From contig PLMQ01000037.1 of NCBI GenBank assembly GCA_003142535.1, positions 46,087 through 81,278 of the forward strand: a stretch of DNA of 35,192 bases. Direction: 5' to 3'. The notes beneath the pieces are model-generated. The model did not search any database. It was not told the DNA's origin and saw nothing but the letters and a program-made list of their open reading frames with translations. The stretch comes from Syntrophaceae bacterium. GTDB lineage: Bacteria; Desulfobacterota; Syntrophia; Syntrophales; Smithellaceae. The translations under genes and the position numbers were made by a program. Positions 14,437-29,114 of the stretch are shown here, one piece after another (the first letter of the stretch is position 1; each line of letters starts with the position of its first letter).

Positions 14437-14454
14437 TAATAATTACTTCCAAAG

Positions 14455-14552
14455 GGAAGTGCCAAGGTCACTGGTGGGCCTCCTGGACTTCAAATCCAGT
14501 GTGGGGCGCTAGAACCGTCCCGGGTGGGTTCGATTCCCATGCACTTCCGCCA
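14455..14552 (+). tRNA. selC: tRNA-Sec (anticodon TCA)
   Basis: Selenocysteine tRNA that reads UGA. GGAAGTGC at 14455-14462 pairs with GCACTTCC at 14541-14548, giving the 8-bp acceptor stem typical of bacterial tRNA-Sec. The anticodon loop ACTTCAAA has TCA at 14490-14492. The long variable arm and GGTTCGATTCC T-arm closely resemble E. coli selC. A discriminator G and an encoded CCA (14550-14552) follow. An integrase gene begins its 3' end 58 bp downstream, so this tRNA is the probable integration site of the element to the right. Confidence 0.95.
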
Positions 14553-14559
14553 ATTAAAA
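14547..14559. other. Candidate attachment site, left end of the element
   Basis: The 13 bases CCGCCAATTAAAA cover the last bases of tRNA-Sec including CCA plus 8 bp of flank. An identical 13-mer occurs at 33386-33398. With an adjacent integrase, the pair could be the direct repeat left by site-specific integration. Most tRNA att cores include more of the tRNA body, which is the main weakness of this call. Confidence 0.4.
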
Positions 14560-14610
14560 CAATAGGTTGACGATTATTGCTGCCGTTCGATCAATCTTAA
14601 CTTTTAGTTA

Positions 14611-15690
14611 TCAGCCGCTATTGTGATAAAATTGTGATAATTTTTCAGTTTTATTGATCGATGTCTGTTTATCTTGGTGTGCTTTAGCAATTTTTTCAGA
14701 GGCGATACGCAGATCATTCTCGCTTGTGATGTTGTACCTGTCAAAGACGCTTCTTGTTTTATGACCAGATATTTTCATTGTGACTGTATCTGGTATCCCC
14801 GCCCGTGACATATTGCGCACCGCAGTTCTTCTGTTGTCGTGAAGTAGTTTCCCAATTAGACCTGACTTTTTACATGCAGTGTGCCAAGCATCTTGATAAT
14901 TCTTTATCTGATGGCCTTCTCTGAAACAAACATAAGGACAATCCGGATAATGATTATCTCTTATTTTCTTTTGGTTCAAAATAGCATCATAAAGCTCACC
15001 CGAAAGAAAAATCACCCTTTCCTGATCATTTTTTGTTGTTCCTGCGCGAAGAGTAATCTTTTTTTCAAAAACGTTAGTATGATCCCAAGTTAAAGATAAA
15101 ATCTCACGCTTTCTCATACCGGTAAAATAAGCGATGGTCAGGATAGCTTTTAAATAATCCGGCAGTGAGTCCCGTAAACGGATATACTCTTCATATTCAA
15201 AGAACCCCTCCCGAGGTGGAGCCTCTTTCAGCTTTGGAACAAATGGTGGGTTGATAATTTTTGGTGGCGTATGTCTTGCACCCAATGTAAACATTCTCTT
15301 TAAAGCCGAGAGCTCTCTGTTAATAGTACTATTACTCGCATTATCTTCTTCCTGCCTGGCAATGATGTAGCTTTCGATCAATTTGGATGTAATCTCCTTG
15401 ACCTTCATACCATCAAAGAAAGAACCGAGATGTTTCAGGCTAATTTCCGCACGACCCAGAGATTTGCGGCTATTTAATTTGTAATCGTTTATAAGATCAG
15501 CCTTGAGGTCTTCAAACTCTATCTTTTCGATGTTTAAGCCATAATGCTTACCTTCCGCTATTTCGCCTTTCAATTTGTCAAAGATCCGTTGCGCCAACTT
15601 CTTGTCTTCAGTCTCTGTTGAGCGTCTTATCTGTTTACCATTATAGGTAAAACTCATCCACCAAACCGAATCTCTTTTATATAGAGCCAT
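14611..15690 (-). CDS. int: Tyrosine recombinase / phage-type integrase
   Basis: Site-specific recombinase, 359 residues from this start. It has an N-terminal AP2-like DNA-binding part, a SAM-like core-binding domain at about 60-160 and a catalytic domain at 165-335. The catalytic set is visible: Arg193 in TGMRKREI, Lys220, His284 and Arg287 in HDNRR, His310 in SGHKT and Tyr319 in RYNI. The frame is open further upstream, but the ATG at 15690 has a perfect AAGGAGG ribosome site and overlaps the HTH gene by 14 bp. It points toward tRNA-Sec and ends 58 bp from it, the usual geometry for a selC-integrated element. Confidence 0.93.
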
Positions 15691-16039
15691 TGTTAACCTC
15701 CTTCCTATGGCCCTCGATCCGGTCTGATTTCCCGTGATTGCTAGAGTAATATTTATTGGTCTCTTCGTCAATGATATTTCCGACAATTTTATCGAAATGA
15801 TTATTTATACGGCTAGATGACTTTCTCCTATTACTCTTGGCCTTCCGCTGTTTTGTCTCTGGTTTATTGACTTTACTGCAATTGACTAACCAGGCATTAA
15901 TTTCATCGAGACGAAACCTAATAAGCCGGCCAATGCGATAATGGGGAATGTCACCAGCTTCAACTTTGGCATACAGGGTCTTCACCTTGATGCTCAGATA
16001 AGCTGAAAGTCTATCTATTGTTAATAATCCTATTTCCAT
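15677..16039 (-). CDS. AlpA/Xis-like helix-turn-helix protein (putative excisionase)
   Basis: A 120-residue protein whose first ~55 residues match the HTH_17 excisionase/AlpA pattern: a first helix with [13 protein letters not shown], then [19 protein letters not shown]. The C-terminal half is basic ([14 protein letters not shown]) and low in complexity. It overlaps the integrase start by 14 bp, so the two are translationally coupled, as in many integrative elements. Its likely role is excisionase, directionality factor, or transcriptional control of the integrase. No clear ribosome site precedes the ATG. Confidence 0.75.
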
Positions 16040-16107
16040 GCTGTGATTAGTATACTCTTCTGAACTAACCAGCCATCAATAATATTGGTACGATTATATA
16101 TTTAATG

Positions 16108-16137
16108 TTGACTTTTACCGTTACAAGATAATAGTAT
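16108..16137 (+). promoter_or_regulatory. Candidate promoter for the 16198 gene
   Basis: TTGACT at 16108-16113, an 18-bp spacer and TAGTAT at 16132-16137 lie in the divergent gap between the xis-like gene and the 368-residue ORF. A GGGAG ribosome site follows just before the ATG at 16198. Confidence 0.35.
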
Positions 16138-16197
16138 TTAAAAATGAATAGAAATAGATGGCCAGAATACATATCGTTTCAGAGGCGGGAGTTTTAG

Positions 16198-17304
16198 ATG
16201 GCAAGATATACGAGTGAGCAGGATAAGTATTATAAAGGGATGAAATTGTTGGTTGACTTATATTACTCTTATAAATCTCTCGGTGATAAGAGCGATATTG
16301 GCCCCGAATTTATTGAAAAATATATTAAGATATTTCGCATATTATTGCCAGGGTTTGACTCATTTATTTGCATTGTGCGAAAGAGGCTCATTACATTTCT
16401 GTTTAATCGGGGTGATGGTTTAAATGTGGAAGGTCCGTCGGAAACTATTATCAGTTATTTTGATGAGCTAATCCAAGCTATCAAACTCCAAGACAATAAT
16501 CATTTTACGTCTGTGACATTACTGGGAGAAACGGTAAGATCGTCTAAAGGAGATAAGAAAAAATCCGCTGATAAACATCATGAACTTTTTTTTGATGAGG
16601 AATTGTTAAAAAATGAAAAATCTTTACAAAAAAAAATGTATCGTCTGGCTTCGCGGAGCAAAACAAGTTTGTATAATAAATATGAGGCCGTGCTTCTCAC
16701 ACCCGAACAAGTAACTGAATGGGGTAATAAGATTGATAGTGAAATATTTTATCCGCTTTATAAACATCAGACCTATGAAGTCGAAGTAGCTTCTGCATTT
16801 GGTAGGAAGATAGTAGATTTAGAAGTTACGTTACGCCGGTATCATTCAATACTAATAGGAATCCCTTATGTTCATGCCCCTGGTTACGATAAGTTAATTA
16901 GATTTTATGAGTTCCTCAATGGAGCTTTTTTTGGGTTTTATGTAGCATTTGGTTCATTCAATCGTATCAAGTTATGTAAAAACAAATCTTGTGAAAAACT
17001 ATTAATCGAAAAGAGACTAGGCTCCAGAGAATTCTGCAGCAATATTTGTAGAAAAAAACATCATGACTCTTTACAAGACCCCGCAACGCGCCTATGTCGG
17101 GAAAAACAAAATGCCTGGATAAGAAATAAACTCTCCCCAGTATTTACAAGACTTCGACCAGAATTACAAGAATTACCAGAATATCATGTCTTTAAGGATG
17201 ACTGTAATTTCTGTGTCAATCAAGTAAAAGGCGGTCTTTGTAAAAAATTGGAAAATAAATATGATAAGAAACATAAGAAGGCATTCATGGCCTTAAAAAG
17301 CTAA
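16198..17304 (+). CDS. Hypothetical protein with a C-terminal zinc-finger-like motif
   Basis: A 368-residue soluble protein that I do not recognise overall. Near residues 262-292 four cysteines are arranged as C-x4-C ... C-x3-C followed by basic residues and two His (CKNKSC, then REFCSNICRKKHH). This resembles the CGNR/ABATE-type zinc finger in which a WCS-x-x-CGNR-like segment closes the site. The upstream part is mostly helical and rich in Lys and Tyr. Two more Cys lie near the C-terminus (DDCNFCVNQ). It is the first plus-strand gene of the element and is divergent from xis-int. A regulatory or DNA-binding role is only an inference. Confidence 0.6.
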   Translation: MARYTSEQDKYYKGMKLLVDLYYSYKSLGDKSDIGPEFIEKYIKIFRILLPGFDSFICIVRKRLITFLFNRGDGLNVEGPSETIISYFDELIQAIKLQDNNHFTSVTLLGETVRSSKGDKKKSADKHHELFFDEELLKNEKSLQKKMYRLASRSKTSLYNKYEAVLLTPEQVTEWGNKIDSEIFYPLYKHQTYEVEVASAFGRKIVDLEVTLRRYHSILIGIPYVHAPGYDKLIRFYEFLNGAFFGFYVAFGSFNRIKLCKNKSCEKLLIEKRLGSREFCSNICRKKHHDSLQDPATRLCREKQNAWIRNKLSPVFTRLRPELQELPEYHVFKDDCNFCVNQVKGGLCKKLENKYDKKHKKAFMALKS

Positions 17305-17557
17305 AAAAGATCTAAGAAGAAGCATCTATTACAATCACCCAATAATCCTGCATTACATCACTATTTCAAAGGCCTCACCTTTTTCGGAGATGAATCCCCT
17401 CATAATATATTGTTACGCTTAATGCAATTCATAATAATCTTATCGTAATTAAATAATTGTGAGCTTATGAACCGCCAATTCTATAAAATAGCCACCAGAT
17501 AAAATTACAGTGAATAGCAAGCGAGCATCTGCGAAAGCTGGGAAAGGAGTTTTAAAC

Positions 17558-17956
17558 ATGAGTATCTATAGAACTATGGCAAGTGATTTTATTAGCTCTG
17601 CCGACACAAAAGCTGGATATGGCTGTTTTCAAGGAATTGATATGGCAAGTAAGCTGGCGCGAAGACTAAGCAAAAATGCTATTCGAAGTTTTCAGAGATA
17701 TCAAAGAGTACCGCCACTTTTTTTTCTATGTCTACAGGAGATAGGATTGATGGATTCTGCAATCGAGATCCCAAATCTGGGGGTTAATCTTCATCAAGCT
17801 GAAATAATTCTCAAGGCAGCCGGTTTATGGGAAGGGCTATCTAAAGATGATCATGTCACTTGCGGCTTGAGGAAACAATCCGGTTCACAGCAACACCTGT
17901 GGCATAGGATCATTGATCAGATAAGATATTTAAAACACGTAAAAATGCCGCGCTAA
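17558..17956 (+). CDS. Hypothetical protein, 132 aa
   Basis: I do not recognise this protein. The frame is open from a GTG at 17510, but the ATG at 17558 has an AAAGGAG ribosome site 8 bp upstream and is preferred. The product is basic, with Arg/Lys-rich helices in the first half (ASKLARRLSKNAIRSFQRYQ) and no signal peptide or membrane segment. The 253 bp between the previous gene and this one hold a possible -10 (TATAAA near 17483) without a well-placed -35. Confidence 0.55.
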   Translation: MSIYRTMASDFISSADTKAGYGCFQGIDMASKLARRLSKNAIRSFQRYQRVPPLFFLCLQEIGLMDSAIEIPNLGVNLHQAEIILKAAGLWEGLSKDDHVTCGLRKQSGSQQHLWHRIIDQIRYLKHVKMPR

Positions 17957-17995
17957 TGACATCCGCAAAGAGCCGGACAGATTATAATAACACTT

Positions 17996-18022
17996 AAGGA
18001 GGTGGTTTATATGATTGCATAA
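17996..18022 (+). CDS. Tiny leader ORF (Met-Ile-Ala)
   Basis: A near-perfect ribosome site (AAGGAGGTGG, 17996-18005) lies 5 bp before ATG ATT GCA TAA (18011-18022). A terminator hairpin follows 32 bp later and then the start of the 350-residue ORF. A strong ribosome site in front of a three-codon ORF suggests a translated leader or attenuation module, or the scar of a lost gene. A similar arrangement recurs at 20195-20219. Confidence 0.3.
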   Translation, partial: KEVVYMIA

Positions 18023-18054
18023 CAGAATAAGCGGCAAATCGGCGGAAACGAATG

Positions 18055-18086
18055 AGCCATTCCTGGTAACGGGAGTGGCTTTTTTA
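18055..18086 (+). terminator. Intrinsic terminator or attenuator before the 350-aa ORF
   Basis: AGCCATTCC (18055-18063) pairs with GGAGTGGCT (18072-18080), with one G-T wobble, followed by six T. It lies only ~50 bp upstream of the next ATG and after the tiny ORF. The sequence just after it (TTTTTTATTTCC, then TTTAAC) is shared with the hairpin at 20258. Confidence 0.7.
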
Positions 18087-18137
18087 TTTCCGGAAACTTT
18101 AACAATTTAACAAATCTCATTAAAGGAGAATTTAGTT

Positions 18138-19190
18138 ATGTCAGTTAATACTGAAAACAAAGAAAAAGTAGAAGTTTCTGAAACTGAGTTAGTACCGGCT
18201 TCAGAAGTGTTGTTAACCCCTTTTATGACAAAGAGTGATGAATGTGAATATATGGATTATTTTGGTCAAGATAGCACCAGCCTAATGGAAATTACATCAC
18301 TGGAAATAATTAATGATGAGGATGGGCATGCCGATGCCCTAAAAAATTGGGAAAAGAAATTAAATAAAGCTAAAGGTTCTCAGAAGGATGAAGTTATTGC
18401 CGAGGGCATTGAATTGGCGTTGAGCATCTCCCATGACACCAATAAACTAATTAATGTAATGTCAAAAAACCTTGCAGAAAGAGCTATAATTATTGGTGCA
18501 ATTTGCAACCAACTGAAGAAGCATATAAAAATTGCTAATACTCCCTGGATCGTCTGGGCCGAACAGAATCTTTCTTTCATCGGCAAGAGGAATAGGGAGA
18601 AGTATATGATGTTGGCAAACCGGTCAGATTGTTATCCCTATTCATTCCTAGGGATTGACCGTGTGGAAATGCTTTGTTCTGCAACTAAAGCCTCCAAGGA
18701 AAAGGATCCTATTGGTACTCTTTTACAGAGCCACAGTATCATCTTTGATCCAGAGGCAGAAACCAATCTGGCGGAATTCAAAGCTAAGATTGACGCTGCT
18801 CTTAGCATTGAGAGGCTGACAAAAAAAGGCTTAAATGTAGACTTCAATCTGGTTGTCAACCTTCTCTATGTGGGTGTTGAGGTTGATAATGCTTTAATCA
18901 AAACCCTTTCCAATATTCAAGAATGTGGTGGAGATACCACAAAGCATCTGGAAAAACTTTTGCTGACTGGTGGTAAGGAATCAGCGGACTATGATGGCGC
19001 TAAAAGACCGGAGGACTTTAACAAATTATCCAACCGTTTAATCCAGACCATCGATTATCTGATAGAAGGCTGCAGTAAGCAGACAGTTTCCATCGATCAA
19101 CTTGATAAGAATTCATACACACTGTTGATTTCGAAATTGGCGGAGTTGAGTAGGGCCGCTCATTTCACTGTTGCCGATGAAGACTTTTAA
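18138..19190 (+). CDS. Hypothetical protein, DUF3102-like segment
   Basis: A 350-residue acidic soluble protein. Residues ~110-160 (AERAIIIGAICNQLKK, then TPWIVWAEQNLSFIGKRNREKYM) resemble the DUF3102-type pattern of mobile-element proteins, in which a helix and a W-containing segment precede a helix-turn-helix. I cannot assign a function. The start has a good AAAGGAG ribosome site. It is preceded by a terminator-like hairpin and followed by another, so its transcription seems to depend on read-through or regulated antitermination. Confidence 0.6.
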   Translation: MSVNTENKEKVEVSETELVPASEVLLTPFMTKSDECEYMDYFGQDSTSLMEITSLEIINDEDGHADALKNWEKKLNKAKGSQKDEVIAEGIELALSISHDTNKLINVMSKNLAERAIIIGAICNQLKKHIKIANTPWIVWAEQNLSFIGKRNREKYMMLANRSDCYPYSFLGIDRVEMLCSATKASKEKDPIGTLLQSHSIIFDPEAETNLAEFKAKIDAALSIERLTKKGLNVDFNLVVNLLYVGVEVDNALIKTLSNIQECGGDTTKHLEKLLLTGGKESADYDGAKRPEDFNKLSNRLIQTIDYLIEGCSKQTVSIDQLDKNSYTLLISKLAELSRAAHFTVADEDF

Positions 19191-19208
19191 TAGCTAAACC
19201 CTTAACTG

Positions 19209-19249
19209 GCTCCCCATTGCTTCATCTCGGAATGGGGAGCTATTTTTTT
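19209..19249 (+). terminator. Strong intrinsic terminator 15 bp before the next gene
   Basis: GCTCCCCATT (19209-19218) pairs perfectly over 10 bp with AATGGGGAGC (19231-19240), followed by TATTTTTTT. The next ATG is at 19265, and its ribosome site lies directly after the T-tract. No promoter fits between the terminator and the gene. Confidence 0.8.
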
Positions 19250-19264
19250 AAAGAGGAATAAGAA

Positions 19265-20161
19265 ATGAAACTTTTTCATGCTTCACTATCGCTTAATATA
19301 TTGAAGCGATATTTTGAAATATTTAAAGCGAAACTCAATGTGCTGCTTTCCAGAGCATACAATGAGCAGGAAGCCGATGGTTTTCTAATCAAGTATCGTT
19401 ATATGACTGAAAGTATAATTGGTGATTCGGGTGCCTGGTCGGTGGCCAAGAAAACATCAAACCTAACAGTCGAAGCCCTGATTGCACATCTTGTAAGATG
19501 GGGGCATCTTTATGACCTGTATTTCAATTTTGATACGGACTTCAGTGACAAGGGCTTCAATAACAACATTGTCAATCAATTAATAATGGAATCTGCCGGT
19601 CTCAAGCCTGTACCGGTTGTTCATAATTTCTTTGATCAGGAAATACCTTATTATGTTCAATCGGGGAAATATGACTGGTTGGCGCTTGGTTCAAGTCAGA
19701 GCAGCAACTACGATTATTTCAGATACGCAATTGATAGAATCAAGACATGGGGCAACCCTAAAATAAAGATACATTGGTTCGGAGGCTCAAAATTCAACTG
19801 GCTGATTAATACACCAATCGCCTCTTGTGATACAACCTCCTGGGCTGCAACGGGAGCTCACGGTGATATTATGTATTGGAATGATAACTATGATGGTCTT
19901 TACAAAATGAATAAGATTTATATCTGCGGTCAAATCAAAGAAGAATCCGGTGATGAAGCCGGAAGACAATTTCATTTTGTTGAATATCCCTGGAAAAAGG
20001 AATTGGAAGAATATCTCTTCAAAACCTTTGGTCTGACTTATGGCAATCTCTGTGGCTATAACGGATATGAAAACATGCAACTTATCAATGTCCATTATTA
20101 TACGGAACTAGAAAAACGGATTAATGAGGAACGTATCCGGCGGGGTATAGAGTTAGAATAA
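19265..20161 (+). CDS. TGT/DpdA-like TIM-barrel protein (putative base transglycosylase)
   Basis: This 298-residue protein resembles the tRNA-guanine transglycosylase superfamily as found in phages and DpdA-type DNA-modifying systems, which swap guanine for a 7-deazaguanine base. Asp54 lies in DSGAWS, matching the DSG[GA] substrate-binding loop. Asp189 lies in SCDTTSW, matching the [SV]DSTSW segment that carries the nucleophile. Between them is a TIM-barrel pattern (VPVVHNF, DWLALGSS, KIHWFGG). The Cys zinc cluster of true tRNA enzymes is not visible. It is an orphan: no preQ0 synthesis genes and no dpdB-like partner lie nearby. A strong terminator precedes it by 15 bp. Confidence 0.6.
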   Translation: MKLFHASLSLNILKRYFEIFKAKLNVLLSRAYNEQEADGFLIKYRYMTESIIGDSGAWSVAKKTSNLTVEALIAHLVRWGHLYDLYFNFDTDFSDKGFNNNIVNQLIMESAGLKPVPVVHNFFDQEIPYYVQSGKYDWLALGSSQSSNYDYFRYAIDRIKTWGNPKIKIHWFGGSKFNWLINTPIASCDTTSWAATGAHGDIMYWNDNYDGLYKMNKIYICGQIKEESGDEAGRQFHFVEYPWKKELEEYLFKTFGLTYGNLCGYNGYENMQLINVHYYTELEKRINEERIRRGIELE

Positions 20162-20164
20162 AAA

Positions 20165-20183
20165 ACGCAGGAGTCTGCGTATT
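20165..20183 (+). terminator. Short hairpin after the TGT-like gene (repeat copy 1)
   Basis: ACGCAG and CTGCGT form a 6-bp stem with a GAGT loop, followed by a weak ATTT tract, 4 bp after the stop codon. The 15-mer CGCAGGAGTCTGCGT is identical to that at 25420-25434. Confidence 0.45.
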
Positions 20184-20194
20184 TAAAATAATAT

Positions 20195-20219
20195 GGAGGT
20201 AATGGTAAATATGCTTTGA
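20195..20219 (+). CDS. Tiny leader ORF (Met-Leu)
   Basis: A GGAGGT ribosome site (20195-20200) is followed by ATG CTT TGA (20211-20219); an in-frame ATG at 20202 is too close to the ribosome site. A terminator hairpin follows at 20258, then the 166-residue ORF. The order ribosome site, tiny ORF, hairpin, T-tract, gene matches that at 17996-18138. Confidence 0.28.
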
Positions 20220-20257
20220 ATGAATAAGATAAGATCAAAATTATAATGTCGGCAGGG

Positions 20258-20286
20258 GGCCAGGTTTTCTTAACTGGCCTTTTTTA
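20258..20286 (+). terminator. Intrinsic terminator or attenuator before the 166-aa ORF
   Basis: GGCCAG (20258-20263) pairs with CTGGCC (20274-20279), extendable to 8 bp with one bulge, and is followed by six T. The next ribosome site (AGGAGG, 20309-20314) and ATG (20323) lie within 40 bp. Confidence 0.7.
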
Positions 20287-20322
20287 TTTCCATTAACATT
20301 TAACCAATAGGAGGATTTTAAT

Positions 20323-20823
20323 ATGTATATTTTTACAAAAAAAGATAAAAAGAATTTTAACGATTTAAAATACTGCTTAAAAGAATTTGGTCTACCCATT
20401 AAGGCAGAAAAAAAGATAGATGCGGGCATGATTATTGAATCTGAATTTGAGCATAAAGAACATTCAGCAAGAATCTTCATTCTGTTGAATCCATCTTGCA
20501 AAGTCGTGACCATTATACTTGATTATGGCATAGCAGAGGGCGAAAAGATTACAACTCTCTATGAGCTGATTGATCGCATAAATATGAAATTGTGTACATG
20601 TCATTTCATAGTATGTCCTGATACAGGGCACGTTTCTTTATGCAGCGGGATGCATCTCACCCATGACAGAATTAGCAAAAAAGAATTTTTAGTGATTCTG
20701 GGAATGTTGATTGCTGAGAGCTGCTTTTTTGCCCCTCTCATCGTGCAGCAGATTGAATCAGATAAAAAGCCGGAAGTGCTGTGGAATCAGTTCTTAATAG
20801 AAAACAAAGACCGAATTGACTAA
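20323..20823 (+). CDS. YbjN-like domain protein (putative)
   Basis: A 166-residue acidic soluble protein whose alternation of strands and helices (DLKYCLKEFGLPI, ARIFILLN, VVTIILDYG, LYELIDRINMKL, FIVCPDTGHVSLCSGM) resembles the YbjN / type III secretion chaperone-like fold. This is a pattern resemblance rather than a firm match. A strong AGGAGG ribosome site precedes the ATG. An attenuator-like hairpin lies upstream and a terminator 75 bp downstream. A partner-binding or chaperone-like role is only an inference. Confidence 0.5.
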   Translation: MYIFTKKDKKNFNDLKYCLKEFGLPIKAEKKIDAGMIIESEFEHKEHSARIFILLNPSCKVVTIILDYGIAEGEKITTLYELIDRINMKLCTCHFIVCPDTGHVSLCSGMHLTHDRISKKEFLVILGMLIAESCFFAPLIVQQIESDKKPEVLWNQFLIENKDRID

Positions 20824-20896
20824 AAAGGAATTTGTTAAAAGCTCTATGCCGGATATGGCAGATAATAATTAATCAAACATAGTTTTATATGTTTAC

Positions 20897-20935
20897 AGGG
20901 GCTCATCTTCATCAAGAGGGTGGGCTCCTTTTTTT
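20897..20935 (+). terminator. Intrinsic terminator after the YbjN-like gene
   Basis: GGGGCTCA (20898-20905) pairs with TGGGCTCC (20921-20928), with wobble pairs, and is followed by seven T. It ends the series of hairpin-separated genes that begins at 17.5 kb. Confidence 0.7.
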
Positions 20936-21070
20936 ATTTAATGTTGTAGGGGATAATTTTTCCAGATATACTCTCTAACAAATAAAGGCGGAGTTCGGAT
21001 TGTCGAAGCAGCTTATTGATAACTGGATGGAATGTGGCATTTTTGGCGGTTGATTTTCCTGAACATCAGG

Positions 21071-21145
21071 GGTATTTGTAACTTCCCGGAAGTCCACACA
21101 TTGCTGTCTTGAAAAAATATTCAACATTACAAACGGTAATCATTA
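21071..21145. repeat. Dispersed repeat, copy A
   Basis: About 75 bp, running from TATTTGTAACTTCC to CAAACGGTAATCATTA. It aligns along its length with copy C (27613-27687), while its right end matches copies B and D. The ends are partly complementary (TTTGTAAC against TTACAAAC), so the unit is an imperfect palindrome. Its identity is unknown. Confidence 0.5.
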
Positions 21146-21303
21146 TTGCGTGTAGTTAATAATTGGCATGAGTTAGGAAAAGTTGCTGATATCAAATTGC
21201 GAACAATATCAGTTGTTGATAAAATACCTTGACATACGAGGCCACCATCGTTAACTTTCTATAAACAATTGAATTTTTTTATTATTTGAACAGAGGTTGC
21301 CTT

Positions 21304-21753
21304 ATGATGATAAATCGATTTGCGTATGTAATTGCAGCGATCATTGTCACTTTTCTGCTTATTGGTTGTCAAACGGCACAAATGTCCAAGAGCACTGAGA
21401 GTGATGCACCCAGTGCAAAGGCCGAATCGCCCAAGGGCACACAAACAGTCAAGGGCATCAACGGCTGGGAAGGCGAGATTTCCGGCTCGCCGGCGCCGGG
21501 CAGCCATTTCACGAGGTTGGAGATTGGAATGAGTATGAGGCAAGTGACCGATCTGATCGGCCGGCCTAACGATATGGGTTCCTATGTGACCGGCAAGGCT
21601 TGGATCCCGTTCTATTATGGTAGCGACCGTTACCGCTACGAGTTGCTTTACAGGGGCCAGGGCCGCTTGATCTTCGCGGGCGGCCACATGGGCGATCGCT
21701 CGGGACATTTGATCTCGATCATTCACAATGCCCAAGAAAGTGACTACCGCTGA
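21304..21753 (+). CDS. Lipoprotein with a SmpA/BamE-like domain
   Basis: A 149-residue exported lipoprotein: hydrophobic signal with lipobox LIGC near residue 21, a Ser/Ala/Pro-rich linker, then a domain with LEIGMSMRQVTDLIGRPND. That is the helix-turn-strand signature of the SmpA/OmlA (BamE) family, which helps stabilise outer-membrane assembly. A TTG further upstream is in frame, but the ATG with AGAGG before it fits the signal better. The gene is clearly GC-richer than the AT-rich sequence on both sides, suggesting separate acquisition. An open frame on the opposite strand is a composition shadow. Confidence 0.75.
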   Translation: MMINRFAYVIAAIIVTFLLIGCQTAQMSKSTESDAPSAKAESPKGTQTVKGINGWEGEISGSPAPGSHFTRLEIGMSMRQVTDLIGRPNDMGSYVTGKAWIPFYYGSDRYRYELLYRGQGRLIFAGGHMGDRSGHLISIIHNAQESDYR

Positions 21754-21768
21754 ATCGAATATTTGCAT

Positions 21769-22195
21769 ACTGGCAGAGTCGTTGCAGTCTATAACGCTGA
21801 ATTTCTGACTCCGGTTGTAACACTGCTTCCTTGTTAGTCAAGTATTCGGCTATTTTAATAACTATCCACCCTTTCAAACGGTATTCGTTATTGGATTGAA
21901 CCGGTTATTTCCTAATGCTAAGGCTATATACACCTTTTGCCCTGAAAATTTACACAATTTTGAAAACTAGACTTTCCCGGGCTATAATATCATTAATCTA
22001 ATTCTCTCCTCCCTGCATACTTGTTACCCATCTGAATACCAATAGGTGGATACATTTTATCCACTGCCGCTTAAGATATTTCAGTGCGTATTTAGAAATA
22101 TTATATAATATTAAACACTTGTCACGCATCTTTTGATTGGTCTATTTCTTGCTTTTGATATCATCAAAATATTTTTGTGAAAGGAGTAATATCAA
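21769..22195. other. Intergenic region with repeat copy B and a hairpin
   Basis: About 440 bp without a gene. It holds repeat copy B (core 21862-21892), whose outer ends ATAACG (near 21790) and CGTTAT (near 21886) are inverted. It also has a perfect 7-bp hairpin at 22046-22064 (GTGGATA, 5-nt loop, TATCCAC). A ribosome site (AAAGGAG) follows at about 22181 for the next gene. Confidence 0.45.
21862..21892. repeat. Dispersed repeat, copy B (core)
   Basis: The core CCACCCTTTCAAACGGTA with a flanking ATTCGTTATT matches the right end of copies A and C. The left half is diverged (GTTGTAAC near 21815). Confidence 0.45.
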
Positions 22196-22648
22196 ATGAA
22201 GAAAGCATTTATAATCATTGTAGCCCTTGTGGTATCTGTAGCTGCTGTCGTGTCGGTGTATGCCTTGCAGCCCAATGAGAAACCCCGTTCCCACAAAGAA
22301 TTTGGTTTTAAAAAATATCTTGGCCTTTCAGACGAACAATTAGCCAAGATGAAAGAACTGAAAATCAGCTTTCATAACGATACGAGGGATTTGAGATACA
22401 ATCTTGCAATCAAGCGGATAGAAATGCGTAAACTATTTACAGATCCCAAAACAGATGATGCAACACTTCTTGCCAAGCAAAAGGAGATAAGTAAACTTCG
22501 GCAGCAACTATCGGACAAGAAAGCTGGGATGAAAATCCAGTGGCGTAAAATTCTTACTGCGGAGCAGATTGCTAAACTTGATAGAATACCTCACAGACAC
22601 CATGAAAAGGGGTGGGCACACCATAGTCAATGCCCAACAAAGGGATGA
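22196..22648 (+). CDS. Spy/CpxP/ZraP-like periplasmic protein
   Basis: A 150-residue protein with a cleavable signal peptide (residues 1-23, VYA cleavage motif). A long helical region follows with YLGLSDEQLAKMKEL and, nearer the end, ILTAEQIAKLD, which match the two LTxxQ-type motifs of the Spy/CpxP family of periplasmic chaperones and metal-stress sensors. The C-terminus is His-rich (HRHHEKGWAHH), a feature of ZraP-like zinc-binding members. A good AAAGGAG ribosome site precedes the ATG. It stands alone between intergenic regions carrying repeats. Confidence 0.75.
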   Translation: MKKAFIIIVALVVSVAAVVSVYALQPNEKPRSHKEFGFKKYLGLSDEQLAKMKELKISFHNDTRDLRYNLAIKRIEMRKLFTDPKTDDATLLAKQKEISKLRQQLSDKKAGMKIQWRKILTAEQIAKLDRIPHRHHEKGWAHHSQCPTKG

Positions 22649-22710
22649 AATCCGGGTTTAGCAGGATTTTGAAAAACTGGATTGTCATATATCTTTAGAA
22701 AGGTTGTGCG

Positions 22711-23148
22711 TTGATTGCGATCACCGGACAAATTAGAAATGGTATTGGTGCGGCAACGCAAACGTTGTCGCACCAACTGCCGTACATTGCGAAGGAATTT
22801 CCCGAGGTAGCCACATGCCACCGCGGCTCCATAAACTTGGAGCTTGAGGTTCCCGTCATCGTGCTAATACCCGATCATCGCACCAAACCGATCGCCTGGC
22901 TGCCTGGGAACGCAAAAACAGAGACCTTCGACCTCGTACGAATCGAGCTTGAGGCGCCTTGCGGAGCCTCTCCCGTTCCAGCGTGGTTGTACATTCCGCA
23001 CCGTTCACCTCATCGCCGAAAATTTCGCATCTGCGAAGTCATCACCCGGAAACTGAACCTGGATGACGTGAAGTCGTGCCGAATCAAAATCAATCGACTG
23101 ACATTTCAGTTGCCCTTTTCTCTGTTCCCATTAGTGGTCGTTGTCTAG
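22711..23148 (+). CDS. Hypothetical protein, possible RibK/DUF120-like fold
   Basis: A 145-residue protein starting at TTG with a GAAAGG ribosome site 7 bp upstream; no ATG is available nearby. The order GQIRNGIGAAT ... RGSINLELEV ... RICEVITRKLNL ... CRIKI recalls the cradle-loop fold of CTP-dependent riboflavin kinase (G-x-V-x-x-G-x-G, PGTLN, C-terminal V-x-I-x-I). The match is partial and the kinase role is not established. GC content is higher than in the neighbouring hotdog gene, so this is another unit of distinct origin. The very hydrophobic last residues may reflect a disturbed C-terminus. Confidence 0.5.
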   Translation: MIAITGQIRNGIGAATQTLSHQLPYIAKEFPEVATCHRGSINLELEVPVIVLIPDHRTKPIAWLPGNAKTETFDLVRIELEAPCGASPVPAWLYIPHRSPHRRKFRICEVITRKLNLDDVKSCRIKINRLTFQLPFSLFPLVVVV

Positions 23149-23168
23149 CGCACATGCACAGGCCTGGG

Positions 23169-23366
23169 TACTGTCAATTTTTTTGTATAAATTTGTCATA
23201 ATCAAAGGACTATCTAATAAAATAGTTCTGATTGAGCGTACCGTTAAGGAAAAAGTAGAATTGGTAGAGTTTGTTTTAGATAAATCCAAGGAGAAATTAG
23301 AGTGAGTTATCTTAAAAAAGAAGGCAAGAATATTATTACAATAGTCGCTCCGATTGTTGCCAAAAA
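23169..23366 (+). repeat. Tandem duplication, left arm
   Basis: The 23 bp from 23169 are identical to the 3' end of the hotdog gene (23868-23890). The following stretch up to the GTG at 23302 and the first ~65 bp of the gene match 23868-24063 at a constant 699-bp offset. Up to the GTG there are about 16 differences in 133 bp and no indel. The left arm is therefore the remnant of an earlier upstream copy of the same gene. Confidence 0.8.
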
Positions 23367-23889
23367 GATTATTAATAAGAATATTCTTCCGCCCTGGGAA
23401 GCTGAACCATACCTTCTGGATCAGTACCTATCTGATAATGAGAATATACGCATGGTTAACATTGAAGATTTTATTCCTCACCGAGAGCCGATGCGTCTTA
23501 TTAATGAAGTTTACGAATTAAAGGAATATTCTGGGGTTACTGGGGCTGTGGTAAAATCTACTTGGCCGCTTTGCGATGGGGATTCGGTGGATTCGCTGGT
23601 ATTAATAGAGGCTATTGGTCAAACATTTGCTTTAGCAGATGGCTATAATAATAAAAAGAAAGGGAAGGCCATTGGTAATGGTTGGATTGTCGGTATTAAA
23701 AGCGCAGAGTTTAAGCAGTCGAGAATCCCAGTGGGCACCGAAATTATTATATCGGTTAAACACCGATATTCGATGGATAGCTATGGCGTTATTGATGGAT
23801 CTGTTAAGGCCGGTGATGATGTGTTGGTTGTAGCAGTAATTCAGGGAATACGTATGGATGATAATGATACTGTCAATTTTTTTGTATAA
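23302..23889 (+). CDS. Hotdog-fold 3-hydroxyacyl dehydratase-like protein (ApeP-like)
   Basis: A 195-residue protein. Residues ~50-190 have the hotdog pattern of ApeP-type 3-hydroxyacyl-(ACP) dehydratases: IPHREPM with His60 and SLVLIEAIGQTFAL with Glu103, matching the His/Glu active site of the FabZ/ApeP class. Residues 1-48 are an extension of unknown role. The start is GTG with an AAGGAG ribosome site, and it overlaps the TGA of a short upstream frame (GTGA). The classic partners (ACP, ketosynthase) are absent. Flanking sequence shows the gene was once tandemly repeated: its 3' end recurs upstream and its 5' end recurs, broken, downstream. Confidence 0.72.
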   Translation: MSYLKKEGKNIITIVAPIVAKKIINKNILPPWEAEPYLLDQYLSDNENIRMVNIEDFIPHREPMRLINEVYELKEYSGVTGAVVKSTWPLCDGDSVDSLVLIEAIGQTFALADGYNNKKKGKAIGNGWIVGIKSAEFKQSRIPVGTEIIISVKHRYSMDSYGVIDGSVKAGDDVLVVAVIQGIRMDDNDTVNFFV

Positions 23890-24063
23890 AGTTATCGTAA
23901 TCAAAGGACTATCTGATACAACAATTATGATTGAGCGTACCATTAAAGAAAAAGTAGAATTGATAGATTTTGCTATAGATAAATCTAAGGAAAAATTAGA
24001 GTGATTTATCTTAAAAAAAAGCAAGAACATCGTTACAATAGTCACTTCGCTTGTTGCCAAGAA
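23868..24063 (+). repeat. Tandem duplication, right arm
   Basis: Second copy of the 23169-23366 segment. It covers the end of the hotdog gene, the spacer and the first ~60 bp of a second hotdog copy. A 2-bp deletion near 24018 breaks the frame, and similarity stops at about 24063, where a lipoprotein gene begins. Confidence 0.8.
24001..24063 (+). pseudogene. 5' fragment of a second hotdog dehydratase gene
   Basis: It starts with GTG and encodes MIYLKK, matching MSYLKK of the intact gene. It is then frameshifted by a 2-bp deletion but still recognisable in nucleotides to GTTGCCAAGAAG. The rest of the gene is missing, replaced by the lipoprotein gene that follows. Confidence 0.7.
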
Positions 24064-24075
24064 GGAGTCTGTGCC

Positions 24076-24894
24076 TTGAGAAAAGAAATTGTTATCCTGT
24101 TTTGCGCCTTCATTATTGCTATCTTAATAGGCTGTGAGTCAGCGTATCAAACTAAAGCTCAAAGAACCTACACAATAGCCAATGCAAATTATGATATGTC
24201 TCTGATCTCGGTTGAAAGATATACGGGGACGCAGAAGATATTTGGAAGGCAAAGTATTGAAGCAGTCATTGAAGAGGGAATTTCAAAATTTTATTTTGAA
24301 GATGAGATGGTAAGAATTAAATGGCTTCCGAGACCTGATGATATTGTTCTTGTTGTCCATAATAAAGCGTTTGGGCCATTGAAAATCGTTTGGGATGAAG
24401 CGAGATTTGTTGATGAAAAGGGTATAAACCATAGATTAATACATTCTGGTATTGGCTATGAAAAAAGAAACGACTCACAGCCATCTACGATCGTTGCAGG
24501 AAAAGATACTATCGAAGATTTTGTACATCCTGTAGATTATTTCCAATGGGAAGAAGGCAAGGGCAAAAAATCATCTAAACAGCAAGGTTACTGGAAAAGA
24601 GACGCGTTCGTGCCGACGGAAATCAAAGGGACAGCAGAAGAATTAAGAGTAAAAGCTGAACCCTTCGTAGGTAAAACCTTTCAGGTGATACTTGCACTGC
24701 AAATTGACGATGTCCGAAATGATTACGCTTGTACTTTTAAAATCAATAAAGTGGATGTAACTGAGAAGGAACAGCAACCCGAAAAAAAAAATCCAATGAA
24801 GGGAAAGGTAATGGAAAAGGCGGCAGAAGGCGTGCATTCTGATCGTCTGTCCGGATTTGATTATGTTAAGAATATTACTATTATAGTAGAATAA
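24076..24894 (+). CDS. Hypothetical lipoprotein, 272 aa
   Basis: An exported lipoprotein with a clear signal and lipobox LIGC at about residues 17-20. I do not recognise the mature domain. It is rich in beta strands, with a charged, Lys-rich segment (GKGKKSSKQQ) and a C-terminal Pro/Lys linker. The frame is open back to the GTG at 24001, but that part is a frameshifted remnant of the hotdog gene. The TTG at 24076 with AAGGAG 8 bp upstream fits the signal peptide. The ribosome site lies at the edge of the duplicated hotdog fragment, so the gene seems to have been joined to a ready-made translation start. Confidence 0.7.
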   Translation: MRKEIVILFCAFIIAILIGCESAYQTKAQRTYTIANANYDMSLISVERYTGTQKIFGRQSIEAVIEEGISKFYFEDEMVRIKWLPRPDDIVLVVHNKAFGPLKIVWDEARFVDEKGINHRLIHSGIGYEKRNDSQPSTIVAGKDTIEDFVHPVDYFQWEEGKGKKSSKQQGYWKRDAFVPTEIKGTAEELRVKAEPFVGKTFQVILALQIDDVRNDYACTFKINKVDVTEKEQQPEKKNPMKGKVMEKAAEGVHSDRLSGFDYVKNITIIVE

Positions 24895-24989
24895 ATAGGA
24901 AATCACAACAGGAAAATACTCAAACAATTTTCACATACCAACCCGTGCTTCCAGTCGAAGTTGCCACGTAACGCGGCTGAAGAACATGT

Positions 24990-25018
24990 TACTCCCTTTC
25001 AATCCGTAATCCTCAATT
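24990..25018. repeat. Dispersed repeat, copy D (core)
   Basis: CTCCCTTTCAATCCGTAATC followed by CTCAATT matches the right end of copies A-C with a few changes. A possible left half (CACGTAACGCGGC) lies at about 24965-24976. Confidence 0.35.
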
Positions 25019-25419
25019 CTAACAACAGTCCTTCACTGAACAGTTGTAGATGAATGAAAGTCCTGCTGCACCTGAATTTTAACTAAATCAGCCTCAATGA
25101 ATACCATGTGAAGTATTGCATATCGGTTGAAAAGAACGACTTGCTGCTTTTAGTAAGCTATTAATAATTTTTCACCACGACGGAAGTTATTGTCTCCTGC
25201 TATACGTAACCGCCTTCATTCCCATTATCAAGCCAACCCGCCAATATTTCATAGTATTTATATAGAACAGCAAAAATCAGCCTCAAAAGCAGAATAAGTC
25301 CCACCATTTAAAAACATAAAACAGACAGTCTGAGAATCTATTCAATACTGGAATATCCTTTCCTGCTACCGGCATAGCATCCAAAAAGCGCACCCGGTGC
25401 GTATTTCAAGATGTAAAAG

Positions 25420-25438
25420 CGCAGGAGTCTGCGTTTTT
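25420..25438 (+). terminator. Short terminator hairpin (repeat copy 2)
   Basis: CGCAG, GAGT loop, CTGCG, then five T. The 15-mer is identical to that at 20166-20180. It precedes the RHH/Rep-like pair by ~110 bp; no gene directly upstream needs it. Confidence 0.6.
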
Positions 25439-25547
25439 ATAAGATGTGCACTTTTTTTATTCAGCACTTTTCCGGAAAGTTTATAGGTTTCAATCCGCAT
25501 ATCTTTCCAGAACAAATATTAAAATAATTTACAAGGAGGTTTTATCT

Positions 25548-25745
25548 ATGAACACAGAGAAGAAAATACAAATTAACCTGGCCATCCCCGAGCATTATAG
25601 AAATCAACTTAGAAGAATGGCTGCTGAAAAGATGATCAAGAATCCGTGGCAAACTACTACCGGAACAGCAATAGCTACAAAGTTGTTGTTAAAGGCACTC
25701 GATGAAATTGAAAAATCCAATGAGGAAGGAGAAACTGAAAAATGA
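25548..25745 (+). CDS. Small ribbon-helix-helix-like protein
   Basis: A 65-residue protein starting at an ATG with a strong AAGGAGG ribosome site 8 bp upstream; the longer open frame from 25446 is rejected. The order of a beta strand (IQINLAIPEHY) and two helices (RNQLRRMAAEKM and TAIATKLLLKALDEIEKS) fits an RHH/CopG-like DNA-binding fold. It overlaps the next gene by 4 bp (ATGA), so the two are translationally coupled. In several plasmids a small RHH repressor sits directly before rep and controls its level; that role is inferred here from position. Confidence 0.55.
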   Translation: MNTEKKIQINLAIPEHYRNQLRRMAAEKMIKNPWQTTTGTAIATKLLLKALDEIEKSNEEGETEK

Positions 25746-26812
25746 AACTGGCATCTGAAAAGTGTTTTAACCGCGCTATCTGTCCGGTAATGAACATCAA
25801 AGGAAAGATAGTGAAGTATCCGCTTGTCGTCAAGCACAAAACATTCGGGTTCCGCTGTGATCGTGGCATACTAGGCCCCAAGCAGATGATGATCATGGAC
25901 ATCATTGGAACAAAACTTATTCATAGCGTGTATGGTAATTCGAGTTTCTCTGACAGAATCCCTACGCCTAATGAAACTCGAGTCAAAAACGTCTCTGCCC
26001 GATGGATGTCCTATAAGCTTTTAAAATATGTAACGGAAAATCTTTCAACAACGCACGAAGGGAAAATTCCGGAATCCTGGCGCAGCGAGAAAGGGCTATT
26101 ACATGAAATCGACAAAGATAAGCCGCGGATTAAAGATGCTGTCGTCCTTACATTGAATGACGGGGTGTTACGCAAGGAGCTGCCGTTTTTGAGAAAATAT
26201 TCATCCGTGCAAATCGAAAAAATGATCAGGCAGACCGCTGAATGCATCTTGAAATTGAATTACCCGATTCGCTTCTTTAACGGAAAGGAATACCAGACCA
26301 TTCCTTTTAATAACTATGGTCTTCCGTCGACATTGTTTACTGGCATCGATATAAAGAACAGAAAACTGTCTAAAGACAACCATGTCCTTGAACGGGAATA
26401 CATTATTCAATTGAATACCATTCTGGGATATATGTTTATGCAGAACATCGCTTCCTGTTACATGGATCTGCTGCCGGGTAAGTTCTATGAGATGTCTGAT
26501 TATGCCCAGCTCTTTTACCGGTTATTCATTTTAACGTATTTCCCAAACAAGAAAAGCGGGAAAAGCCCAAAGAATCCAATTTCCCTTGAAGAGATAAGAA
26601 AAAGACTTGTTCTAAAGACACCTGACACATACATGGTGAGAAAAACAGTGAGCAGAATATTGAGTGAATTGGAAGATTATAATTTTATCAGCGCCCCTAA
26701 AGAAGAGAAGATATACGGCGCATACATGTACAGCTATAAGAAAAATACATGGAAAGATATTACCGGAGAAGATGAAACCCCGGAAACTGATTTGGATGAT
26801 ATCGGAAATTGA
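25742..26812 (+). CDS. Replication-initiator-like protein (putative)
   Basis: A 356-residue protein with two helical, probably winged-helix regions. The second (MSDYAQLFYRLFILTYFPN, then NPISLEEIRKRL and TVSRILSELEDYNFI) has the cadence of plasmid and integrative-element replication initiators. There is no signal peptide or transmembrane segment, and the C-terminal tail is acidic. It is coupled to a small RHH-like gene upstream and followed by nearly 1 kb of gene-free AT-rich DNA, the usual place for an origin. The family cannot be confirmed by eye. A transcriptional regulator with duplicated wHTH domains is the main alternative. Confidence 0.45.
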   Translation: MKLASEKCFNRAICPVMNIKGKIVKYPLVVKHKTFGFRCDRGILGPKQMMIMDIIGTKLIHSVYGNSSFSDRIPTPNETRVKNVSARWMSYKLLKYVTENLSTTHEGKIPESWRSEKGLLHEIDKDKPRIKDAVVLTLNDGVLRKELPFLRKYSSVQIEKMIRQTAECILKLNYPIRFFNGKEYQTIPFNNYGLPSTLFTGIDIKNRKLSKDNHVLEREYIIQLNTILGYMFMQNIASCYMDLLPGKFYEMSDYAQLFYRLFILTYFPNKKSGKSPKNPISLEEIRKRLVLKTPDTYMVRKTVSRILSELEDYNFISAPKEEKIYGAYMYSYKKNTWKDITGEDETPETDLDDIGN

Positions 26813-26941
26813 AATGGTTAACCTCGGTAACTCAATTGGTGTTTTAGCGAATATATCCGATTCTCATTTGAAAATAGCACTCTAAACCATTGAGATATAA
26901 AAGCAATTTCTCTATTAAATTAATATAATTTAATTATGGTT

Positions 26942-26979
26942 GAGAGAAATGGACCTTGCTAAAGCAGGCCCATTCTCTC
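26942..26979. repeat. Long imperfect hairpin
   Basis: GAGAGAAATGGACCTTGC and GCAGGCCCATTCTCTC are complementary apart from two bulges and a wobble, around a short TAAA loop. A run of C and A follows instead of T, so it is not a classic terminator. It may be a DNA or RNA structure linked to replication. Confidence 0.55.
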
Positions 26980-27612
26980 CCCCTAAAAAGAGAAAAGATC
27001 TGATAATCTGGGATATAATTAAGAAGAAATATCAAAAGTAAAAAGCATAAATTCAAGGAAAAGAATAAATGGCTTCTTTGAGATAAATGAAATTATCAAG
27101 GGAGCTCGAAAGTCCGGAGATAACAAAGGATAAAACGCGAAGCAATTTCAACAGAAAGTTACAGATATTCTTTGTTCTCATCAAGGCTAAAGTTAAGAAA
27201 AAGATTTAAGATAACCTAAGTACTAAAATAATATTATTTATGGAAGATTTCAAATTAACGTTCCAGATGAGAATTGGTCGAAGCAGAGAAAAACTTTTAT
27301 CTTTAATTTTTTAGAAATATGGGAAGTAGAAGCCTTAAGTTAAGATGGAGTCTTCAACCAGGTATTTCAGGTCTTTTAAAAAAAATAAAAAAAATGGTAT
27401 AATATTAAAGTGGTTGTTGCTGCTTCTGCTGGTTATATCTGAGCATCAGCATTTAATAACTTCCTGAGTCGTCTGGAGTAAGAGATCTTTACTGATTAAT
27501 ATATGGGGTAGGATGAAGAAAAAAATGACTCTCAAGAGTTTGTTGCTTAGTCTAGATTGATGAATATAGGATGAAAGGTGCGTTTTTCAAGGGCTATTTT
27601 TTCAATGATTGA

Positions 27613-27687
27613 GGCTATTTGTAACTTCCTGAAATCAAGCATCCGGCAGTTATGAATTATATCCAACCTTTCAAACGGTAATCCTTA
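27613..27687. repeat. Dispersed repeat, copy C
   Basis: About 75 bp, best preserved with copy A: CTATTTGTAACTTCC at the left and CCTTTCAAACGGTAATCC at the right, with a diverged centre. Like copies A and B it lies upstream of a gene for an exported protein. Confidence 0.5.
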
Positions 27688-27793
27688 CCAAGAAGAATTT
27701 ATTGACAATCACTTTAGATAAATCTATCGTTTTTTCAAATTAAATTGAAGTTATTATTTCTTTAAATGACTACTATTAATTGTTGGGTTCAAT

Positions 27794-28092
27794 ATGAATA
27801 AAGCTATACTTGCAGTATTTCTTCTAGTTGCTGCACTAACTTTACCGGTAAACTTATATGCCGATGGCTTGACGATTAATATCAAGGCAATAACCCCAAA
27901 TATTAGGAAAGGCGAGGTTCCAAAATTCAACGTAAGCATCACAAATTCTTCTAGTACATCAATAAAAATTATTGACGTGATTTCCGGGCAAGACCCAAAG
28001 GATATTTATACGAAGTTAATCGTAAAAAATCAGGAAAACCAATTGATATTCCAATTGCAATATCAGATACTGGTCCATTCTTAGATGTATGA
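27794..28092 (+). pseudogene. Secreted beta-sandwich protein, probably frameshifted and truncated
   Basis: It starts with a clear signal peptide (residues 1-23, LYA cleavage motif). A short beta-rich domain follows (KGEVPKFNVSITNSSSTSIKIIDV). The zero frame ends at 28084 in an uncharacteristic tail. In the +1 frame, from about 28038, the translation KPIDIPIAISDTGPFLDV reads as a more natural continuation and stops at 28092. Either way the protein is short (<100 aa) and looks like a decayed gene. The identity of the intact family is not known to me. Confidence 0.5.
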
Positions 28093-28139
28093 GTAAACAT
28101 TAAGAATGGATACCGAAGTTATCGGATGAAAGGAAAAGC

Positions 28140-29114
28140 ATGCAGTCATCCTCAGGCAATCTTGTTCAAAACGAATATCGGATGCGCATTAACCGGACAA
28201 TCGATTTTATCCGGGAACATTACGATGAGGAATTGAATCTCGACAGGCTTGCATCCATCGCCTGTTTTTCCAAATTTCATTTTCACCGGCTCTTCCGAAC
28301 CATAGTTGGCGAGACACTCAGTGACTTCGTCCAACGGATCCGGCTTGAAAAATCCGTGCAGAAACTGACAACCGAGGCGGAGAAATCCATAACGGAAATC
28401 GCGTTGGAATGCGGCTTCTCCTGTTCGCAAAATTATGCCAGGGTCTTCAAAGCGCACTATGGCGTGTCGCCCTCGGTGATTCGCCGGGAGTTTAACTGGA
28501 ACGAATGGAAGGTGAAGATCTCCAAGTTGAAGGGGAAATGTAAAGATAATCTGTCTCCGGCCGAGGCCTACTTGTACGAGACCTATCTCAAGAAGGGCAA
28601 ATTATCGATTGATGATTTAATTGATGAACGGCCGACACTGGACGTCAGTGTCAGGAACCTGCCGGACATACGCGTTGCCTACGTGAGAAGTCTGGGACCT
28701 TACACCGCCGAGCGTATTGCACCGGCCTTCCGGCAGTTGTTCCAGTGGGCGACACCACGGGGGCTAGTGGGACCGAAGGTTAAGGTACTGAGCGTATGGG
28801 CAAATCCCAGCGTCACCCCGGAAGATAAGCTGATTCACGACGCCTGCATTGGCGTGCCGGAATCCGTAGGGGCGGATAAATGGGTGGATGTTCAGGTGTT
28901 GCCTGGCGGATTGTTCGCTATCTATCACTGCGAAACAAGCCCCGCCCAGTTAGATGAAGCCTGGAAGCGCCTGACATTAAACTGGCTGATCTCCAGCGAC
29001 TACCAGCCCGATGACCGTCCCCTGTATCAAATCTACTGCAACAACCCCGCTACCCACCCTTCTAAGCACTGCGTGCTGGCCTTGTGCTTGCCCGTGAAGC
29101 CGCTTTTCGAGTAG
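28140..29114 (+). CDS. AraC-family regulator with GyrI-like effector domain
   Basis: A 324-residue transcription factor. Residues ~12-115 are two AraC-type helix-turn-helix units (LDRLASIACFSKFHFHRLF and ITEIALECGFSCSQNYARVF). Residues ~165-320 form a GyrI-like small-molecule-binding domain (VRNLPDIRVAYVRSLGPY, VLPGGLFAIYHCE). This layout is that of Rob/BltR-like regulators that sense hydrophobic ligands. An AAAGGA ribosome site precedes the ATG. It is the first gene of a plus-strand run with an acetoacetate-decarboxylase-like enzyme and an acyl-CoA dehydrogenase, which it may control. Composition is GC-richer than in the 21-28 kb segment. Confidence 0.9.
   Translation: MQSSSGNLVQNEYRMRINRTIDFIREHYDEELNLDRLASIACFSKFHFHRLFRTIVGETLSDFVQRIRLEKSVQKLTTEAEKSITEIALECGFSCSQNYARVFKAHYGVSPSVIRREFNWNEWKVKISKLKGKCKDNLSPAEAYLYETYLKKGKLSIDDLIDERPTLDVSVRNLPDIRVAYVRSLGPYTAERIAPAFRQLFQWATPRGLVGPKVKVLSVWANPSVTPEDKLIHDACIGVPESVGADKWVDVQVLPGGLFAIYHCETSPAQLDEAWKRLTLNWLISSDYQPDDRPLYQIYCNNPATHPSKHCVLALCLPVKPLFE

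Follow-up and report, generated by a model that had tools for sequence, protein, structure and literature searches.

Intrinsic terminators and tiny leader reading frames in front of successive genes of an integrative element in tRNA-Sec: probable control by regulated read-through

A cluster of three co-directional genes in a Syntrophaceae bacterium, carried by an integrative element inserted in tRNA-Sec, bears an intrinsic transcription terminator directly in front of each of its genes. The cluster lies within a stretch of 35,192 nucleotides, hereafter called the window (contig PLMQ01000037.1, positions 46,087 to 81,278, assembly GCA_003142535.1), which belongs to a genome of 2.93 Mb across 70 contigs. 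Because the genes directly follow the terminators and no promoter would fit in between, read-through of the terminators is very likely required for expression of the downstream genes, and this read-through is probably regulated. Processive antitermination of a terminator-gated operon is the leading explanation, although we rate it at somewhat less than an even chance. The genes and terminators of the cluster are as follows:

18054-18085, + strand: intrinsic terminator T1 of leader A (hairpin 18054-18081 plus T-tract)
18138-19190, + strand: first gene, a conserved helical protein
19207-19249, + strand: intrinsic terminator of junction C, between the first and second genes
19265-20161, + strand: second gene, a TGT/DpdA-like protein
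20257-20286, + strand: intrinsic terminator T1 of leader B (hairpin 20257-20280 plus T-tract)
20323-20823, + strand: third gene, a weakly YbjN-like protein
20897-20936, + strand: cluster-end terminator with a 14-bp stem (hairpin 20897-20929)

An earlier note on this DNA had described three hairpins with T-tracts located 15-52 bp before the next start codon. This was confirmed by a purpose-written scan, in which 1000 dinucleotide shuffles were generated for each gap. The hairpin of leader A (GAGCCATTCCTG-GTAA-CGGGAGTGGCTT, then TTTTATTT) has a free energy of -19.8 kcal/mol, that of junction C (19207-19242, then TTTTTTTA) of -21.8 kcal/mol, and that of the cluster end of -21.4 kcal/mol; none of these was equalled in 1000 shuffles. 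The hairpin of leader B (-11.8 kcal/mol, then TTTTTATT) is the weakest of the four and was equalled by 14 shuffles in 1000. The T-tracts are separated from the start codons of the first, second and third genes by 52, 15 and 36 bp, and no sigma-70-like site was found by a simple scanner between the three T-tracts and these start codons. The previous proposal that genes placed in this way are in need of read-through is supported. In 18 kb, the same scanner detected 24 terminator-like sites where 15.0 +/- 3.7 were expected; those at 20897 and 18054 have the most base pairs of all. Several intrinsic terminators are assembled in one co-directional operon, as in the operons of Tn916 and pLS20.

Relatives of the element were traced via the TGT-like protein. 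The close set includes L003, a second and diverged island on another contig of the window's own genome; L008, from the same family as the window genome; L030, from the same phylum; L010, from a metagenome-assembled genome (MAG) of an uncultured delta proteobacterium (L022 is apparently the same contig); and L011, a contig of 3.2 kb from a MAG that bears the name Clostridia. More distant relatives are L023, L031, L032 and L033. The distant TGT relatives around the L011 genome do not extend the element family. The order of the first, TGT-like and YbjN-like genes is kept in L003, L008, L010 and L011, and the first two genes are kept in L030. The island L003 is situated near the end of an antisense tRNA and carries ATPase and sulfatase-modifying-factor-like genes, labelled by sequence reading alone.

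The earlier note had named a lack of hairpin conservation across related islands as a finding that would refute its proposal; instead, terminators were found at corresponding junctions in L008, L010 and L011 and, in part, in L003 and L030. Leader A terminators are present in the window, L008, L010 and L011, with T1 of the window conserved in L008 and L011, while leader B terminators are present in the same four elements and in L003, where the hairpin is identical. L030 possesses three tandem terminators 5′ of the first gene and also one between the first and second genes. At junction C, the free energies are -21.8 kcal/mol in the window, -24.1 in L008, -26.5 in L010 and -23.4 in L011, and the distance from the start of the T-tract to the ATG is 21-26 nt in all four; the stem sequences diverge, but the place and the pairing are kept. 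The proteins flanking the conserved terminators are mostly just 28-40% identical between elements. Co-directional genes with a terminator at most 120 nt upstream amount to 12/34 in five elements versus 5/169 in the host (Fisher p=2.6e-7), these counts being approximate, since the genes of the host set of about 280 kb and of the elements were called by a simple script.

Beyond what had been noted before, conserved upstream open reading frames (uORFs) of 2-4 codons are found in the leaders, and most of them have a second hairpin or terminator upstream. In the window, these leader features are:

17997-18002, + strand: Shine-Dalgarno (SD) sequence AGGAGG of the leader A uORF
18011-18022, + strand: leader A uORF, ATG ATT GCA TAA (MIA)
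20165-20180, + strand: short hairpin ACGCAGGAGTCTGCGT (T0) of leader B, also found within 25415-25442
20195-20199, + strand: SD sequence GGAGG of the leader B uORF
20211-20219, + strand: two-codon leader B uORF, ATG CTT TGA (ML)

The uORFs of leaders A and B have a strong SD sequence and 2-4 codons and lie 31-54 nt 5′ of T1, so that a short uORF behind an SD sequence precedes the leader terminator, as in the vmlR leader. The leader A peptides are MIA in the window and in L008 (with a weaker SD), MNV in L011 and MPFT in L030; leader A of L010 has no ATG, and a CTG start would give LPTT. In leader B, the peptides are ML in the window and MR, MR, MS and MC in the relatives, i.e., exactly two codons in five elements of five, and an in-frame ATG at 20202 in the window would yield MVNML instead of ML. 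A strong SD with an ATG and no more than four codons occurs in 8/10 leaders, against 0.04-1.3% per leader in a dinucleotide-shuffle null; for five two-codon frames in five, the joint probability is 2.6e-12 assuming independence, and related leaders are not independent. The succession of SD, ATG-NNN-stop, 48-78 nt and TTTTTTATT was met in only three of these islands in 155 genomes of the class, and the reversed control gave no occurrences in the same genomes. As to the structures upstream of the uORFs, the B leaders have the CGCAGGAGTCTGCG palindrome or its variant, and a second terminator is present in the A leaders of L008, L010, L011 and L030.

The leaders are recognisable as DNA between elements, unlike most neighbouring genes. 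When the window region of 16.0-21.2 kb was compared with the other elements by BLASTN, leader A matched L008 over 113 bp (80%, E=8e-18) and L011 over 106 bp (78%, E=1e-14), and leader B matched L003 over 237 bp (70%, E=2e-19). The TGT-like gene also matches other elements at the DNA level; for the first gene, there was one short match in L010, in addition to its opening bases at the end of the L011 leader A match, and for the YbjN-like gene nothing past the first bases. These BLAST matches were used in place of percent identities from gapped leader alignments, which were dropped because shuffled leaders reach about 66%. A covariance model of leader A was run on 297 genomes, and the best non-island hits examined in their context (three loci) looked like ordinary gene-end terminators. 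The exact hairpin sequences were absent from viral contigs, and plasmid and phage DNA gave no relevant match. In six viral contigs (L077, L079, L083, L084, L086 and L087), AAGGAGG...ATGATATGA is followed by a terminator, and in three others (L080, L082 and L085), a T-tract comes after SD-ATG-(AGA/AGG/AAA)-stop; a scored terminator is present in L082 and L085. Judging by these viral contigs, two-codon reading frames before terminators may be more widely spread.

According to the proposed mechanism, each cistron is a unit of SD, reading frame and terminator, no promoter can be recognised behind the terminators, and the downstream genes would depend on RNA polymerase passing at least one intrinsic terminator. 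In the quiet integrated state, the terminators would silence the genes and block stray or host-derived transcripts. Upon activation of the element, polymerase starting from the element's own promoter would become terminator-resistant and pass all the terminators. The antiterminating agent should be either a host factor or something conserved in the element, whether an RNA of the 5′ region or a conserved protein, for instance the first-gene product. The leaders, with their SD and uORF of 2-4 codons, would place a ribosome between two hairpins, close behind the polymerase, and may serve to tune the gate or to load the antitermination state. Junction C lacks a uORF and leaves neither space for a promoter nor much for an alternative fold, so a mechanism acting on the polymerase while it goes through all the terminators fits best; the terminators at this uORF-free junction argue for a mechanism independent of any single leader. 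It is conceivable, though improbable, that a ribosome sitting on a start-one-codon-stop frame between hairpins makes the following polymerase terminator-resistant; if true, translation initiation itself, rather than the peptide or an alternative RNA fold, would switch the whole operon.

Several observations weigh against regulated antitermination. Intrinsic terminators are at times partly leaky, and a constitutive low read-through could suffice. In L003, only 17 nt separate the first gene from the second and there is no terminator between them, and the hairpin 5′ of the TGT-like gene has no T-tract in L031 and L032, so that not every such place carries a terminator. The independent elements are few (5-6), and L011 is possibly misbinned. 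Finally, no antiterminator was identified.

The earlier note had put forward the unknown proteins encoded at 16198 and 17558 as candidate antiterminators. Neither is conserved alongside the terminator architecture: the 16198 product has no relative in any other tested element, though these keep the terminators, and that of 17558 has a relative in L008 only (32% over 88 amino acids, E=1.4e-11), while the architecture is found elsewhere too. If an element-encoded factor exists, conservation would rather single out an RNA or one of the three cluster proteins (first-gene, TGT-like or YbjN-like). For the first-gene protein, an all-helical fold is predicted with low to moderate confidence (predicted local distance difference test, pLDDT, 68), and its model found no match in the PDB. 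A "DUF3102-like" label proposed for it from the sequence was not confirmed because Pfam gave no match at E<=0.1. The TGT-like label of the second gene held (PHROG 887, E=1.2e-22), with similarity to the TGT/DpdA superfamily, and the L010 relative of this protein matches 152 phage records; the YbjN-like label of the third gene was only weakly matched, below the cut-off (E=0.042).

In the region of 16-27 kb, Rfam returned chance matches only, with no useful scores. The element contains no NusG paralogue; two NusG proteins are encoded in the genome, each on a contig other than that of the window. One of them (L072) adjoins ribosomal-protein genes, and the other (L073, contig C15) is an extra paralogue of 167 amino acids, the size of RfaH or LoaP. 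A CTTAAC motif is located on the + strand at 19201-19206, directly 5′ of the junction C hairpin, and CTTAAC or TTTAAC stands 5′ of hairpins at junctions of L008, L010, L011, L030 and the window. Within 30 nt after a stop codon, it occurs in 7/13 element junctions versus 1/105 host gaps, a pattern found post hoc. We take its likeness to the boxA core to be faint; the boxA of the host is not readable, as the assembly has no 16S gene. The sequence GCGGYAA presumably bears a weak resemblance to part of ops.

The uORFs bring to mind a ribosome-gated attenuation, in which a ribosome on the 2-4-codon frame would decide whether T1 forms, and translation stress would induce the downstream genes. We place this second and consider it rather unlikely, even though much in the leaders speaks for it: a strong SD, an ATG and at most four codons in eight leaders of ten; two codons in every B uORF while the second codon varies; the MIA frame retained in leader A of L008 despite its weaker SD; the restriction of the SD-ATG-NNN-stop-T-tract pattern to three islands among 155 genomes; and the same order of three-codon uORF, terminator and SD in vmlR (PMC9226507). 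Against it, the upstream leader sequesters the 5′ arm of T1 no more than shuffled leaders do, the values generally falling in the range of the shuffles whether or not a ribosome mask was applied, and neither a conserved pairing nor the mutually exclusive, ribosome-controlled antiterminator pairing of the vmlR kind was found in the leaders; junction C also has no uORF, and leader A of L010 has no ATG.

About equally doubtful is the possibility that the hairpins are leaky terminators or mRNA-processing elements that set expression ratios and protect upstream 3′ ends under constitutive partial read-through. The hairpins of L031 and L032 occupy the same place before the SD without a T-tract, the window's hairpin in leader B is only moderately strong (-11.8 kcal/mol), and the two-codon minigene of axe-txe reportedly acts on mRNA stability and translation (PMC8708949), all of which would suit such a role. 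On the other hand, nearly every junction in the five close elements retains its T-tract, tandem terminators are found in the first-gene leaders of L008, L010, L011 and L030, and most junctions have free energies of -17 to -26 kcal/mol. Still less probable, and in our opinion very unlikely, is that the leaders and hairpins are mainly recombination joints for gene swaps in modular cassettes, their conservation reflecting recent exchange and not regulation. It is true that the leaders match as DNA while the adjacent first and third genes have about 28-40% protein identity, that the leaders of the window and L003 share one genome, and that the CGCAGGAGTCTGCG palindrome recurs near element ends; yet the constant order of the three genes in the close elements indicates little shuffling, the length and position of the uORFs are kept despite sequence divergence, and the junction C terminators vary in sequence but not in place or pairing. 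Processive antitermination is the reading that we put ahead of these three.

The integrative element that carries the terminator cluster sits in tRNA-Sec, with the integrase and excisionase adjoining the tRNA gene, as is characteristic of tyrosine-recombinase integrative elements. The integrase/excisionase pair is followed by rightward genes starting at 16198, 17558, 18138, 19265 and 20323. The features to the left of the cluster are:

14455-14552, + strand: tRNA-Sec gene, the presumed attachment site of the element
14611-15786, - strand: tyrosine-recombinase integrase (PF00589, E=7e-17; PHROG 1)
15677-16039, - strand: HTH_17 excisionase-like protein (PF12728, E=7e-12; PHROG 66 excisionase)
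16198-17304, + strand: unknown protein with a weak CGNR zinc finger under the cut-off
17558-17956, + strand: unknown protein

No conjugation genes were recognised here. A search of 14440-28300 for a direct repeat of the end of tRNA-Sec, which would mark attR, yielded none of 15 bp or more, and the right boundary is perhaps further on or degenerate. Beyond the cluster end, a 77-bp stretch (21073-21149) is 83% identical to positions 1875-1950 of L008 and has related copies at 21838-21890 and 27635-27687; it is possible that this stretch is an element boundary or an insertion module. A direct repeat of 151 nt with 89% identity (23169-23319 and 23868-24018) has a spacing of 699 bp. By eye, a small gene with its 5′ region at 25495-25740 looks very much like positions 14200-14440 of L003. 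The palindrome AAAACGCAGGAGTCTGCGTTTTT is found in leader B (20161-20188) and at 25415-25442 in the window, at 14774 in L010 and at 2122 in L008, near element ends.

To our knowledge, integrative elements controlled by termination and antitermination have been described chiefly among Gram-positive conjugative elements and lambdoid phages. The cluster described here is a likely case, whose leaders are conserved, from an element family that has received little description and occurs mainly in Desulfobacterota-like genomes. A fixed two-codon uORF 5′ of a terminator is a compact and testable arrangement, and the terminators and leaders together make a concrete set for finding a new antiterminator.

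In the lambda N/nut, RfaH/ops and LoaP systems, a modified polymerase passes the terminators of an operon. By contrast with these systems, no N- or Q-like protein was recognised here, nor does the element have a NusG-family protein. In pLS20-type operons, internal intrinsic terminators have been read as a sign of processive antitermination (PMC8955417), and the element shares with them the presence of many intrinsic terminators in one operon of a mobile element. The pLS20 conjugation operon, however, has more than 20 terminators in more than 30 kb and the ConAn1 protein and conAn2 RNA at its start (PMC8955417), neither of which was the object of a direct search here. The leader of an operon gene in axe-txe likewise contains a two-codon ORF, but this minigene is reported to affect translation, possibly via mRNA stability, whereas here a terminator stands between minigene and gene (PMC8708949). 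In B. subtilis vmlR, SD, three-codon uORF, hairpins, terminator, SD and gene follow one another, and the length of the uORF is fixed while its codons vary (PMC9226507). In contrast to vmlR, no alternative pairing was found in our leaders, the downstream genes do not encode ABC-F factors, the B leaders have two codons, and a terminator is also present at a uORF-free junction (PMC9226507). Finally, in Tn916, canT drives read-through of the terminators of the element (PMC11658703). Both elements have intrinsic terminators inside an operon of an integrative element, one of them near an attachment end, and expression needs read-through in Tn916 and very likely here. Tn916 differs in being conjugative and in relying on a 452-bp canT fragment that most likely acts as RNA, no such RNA having been identified here (PMC11658703), while in the element from the Syntrophaceae bacterium the terminators are placed between successive small genes and are combined with tiny uORF leaders.

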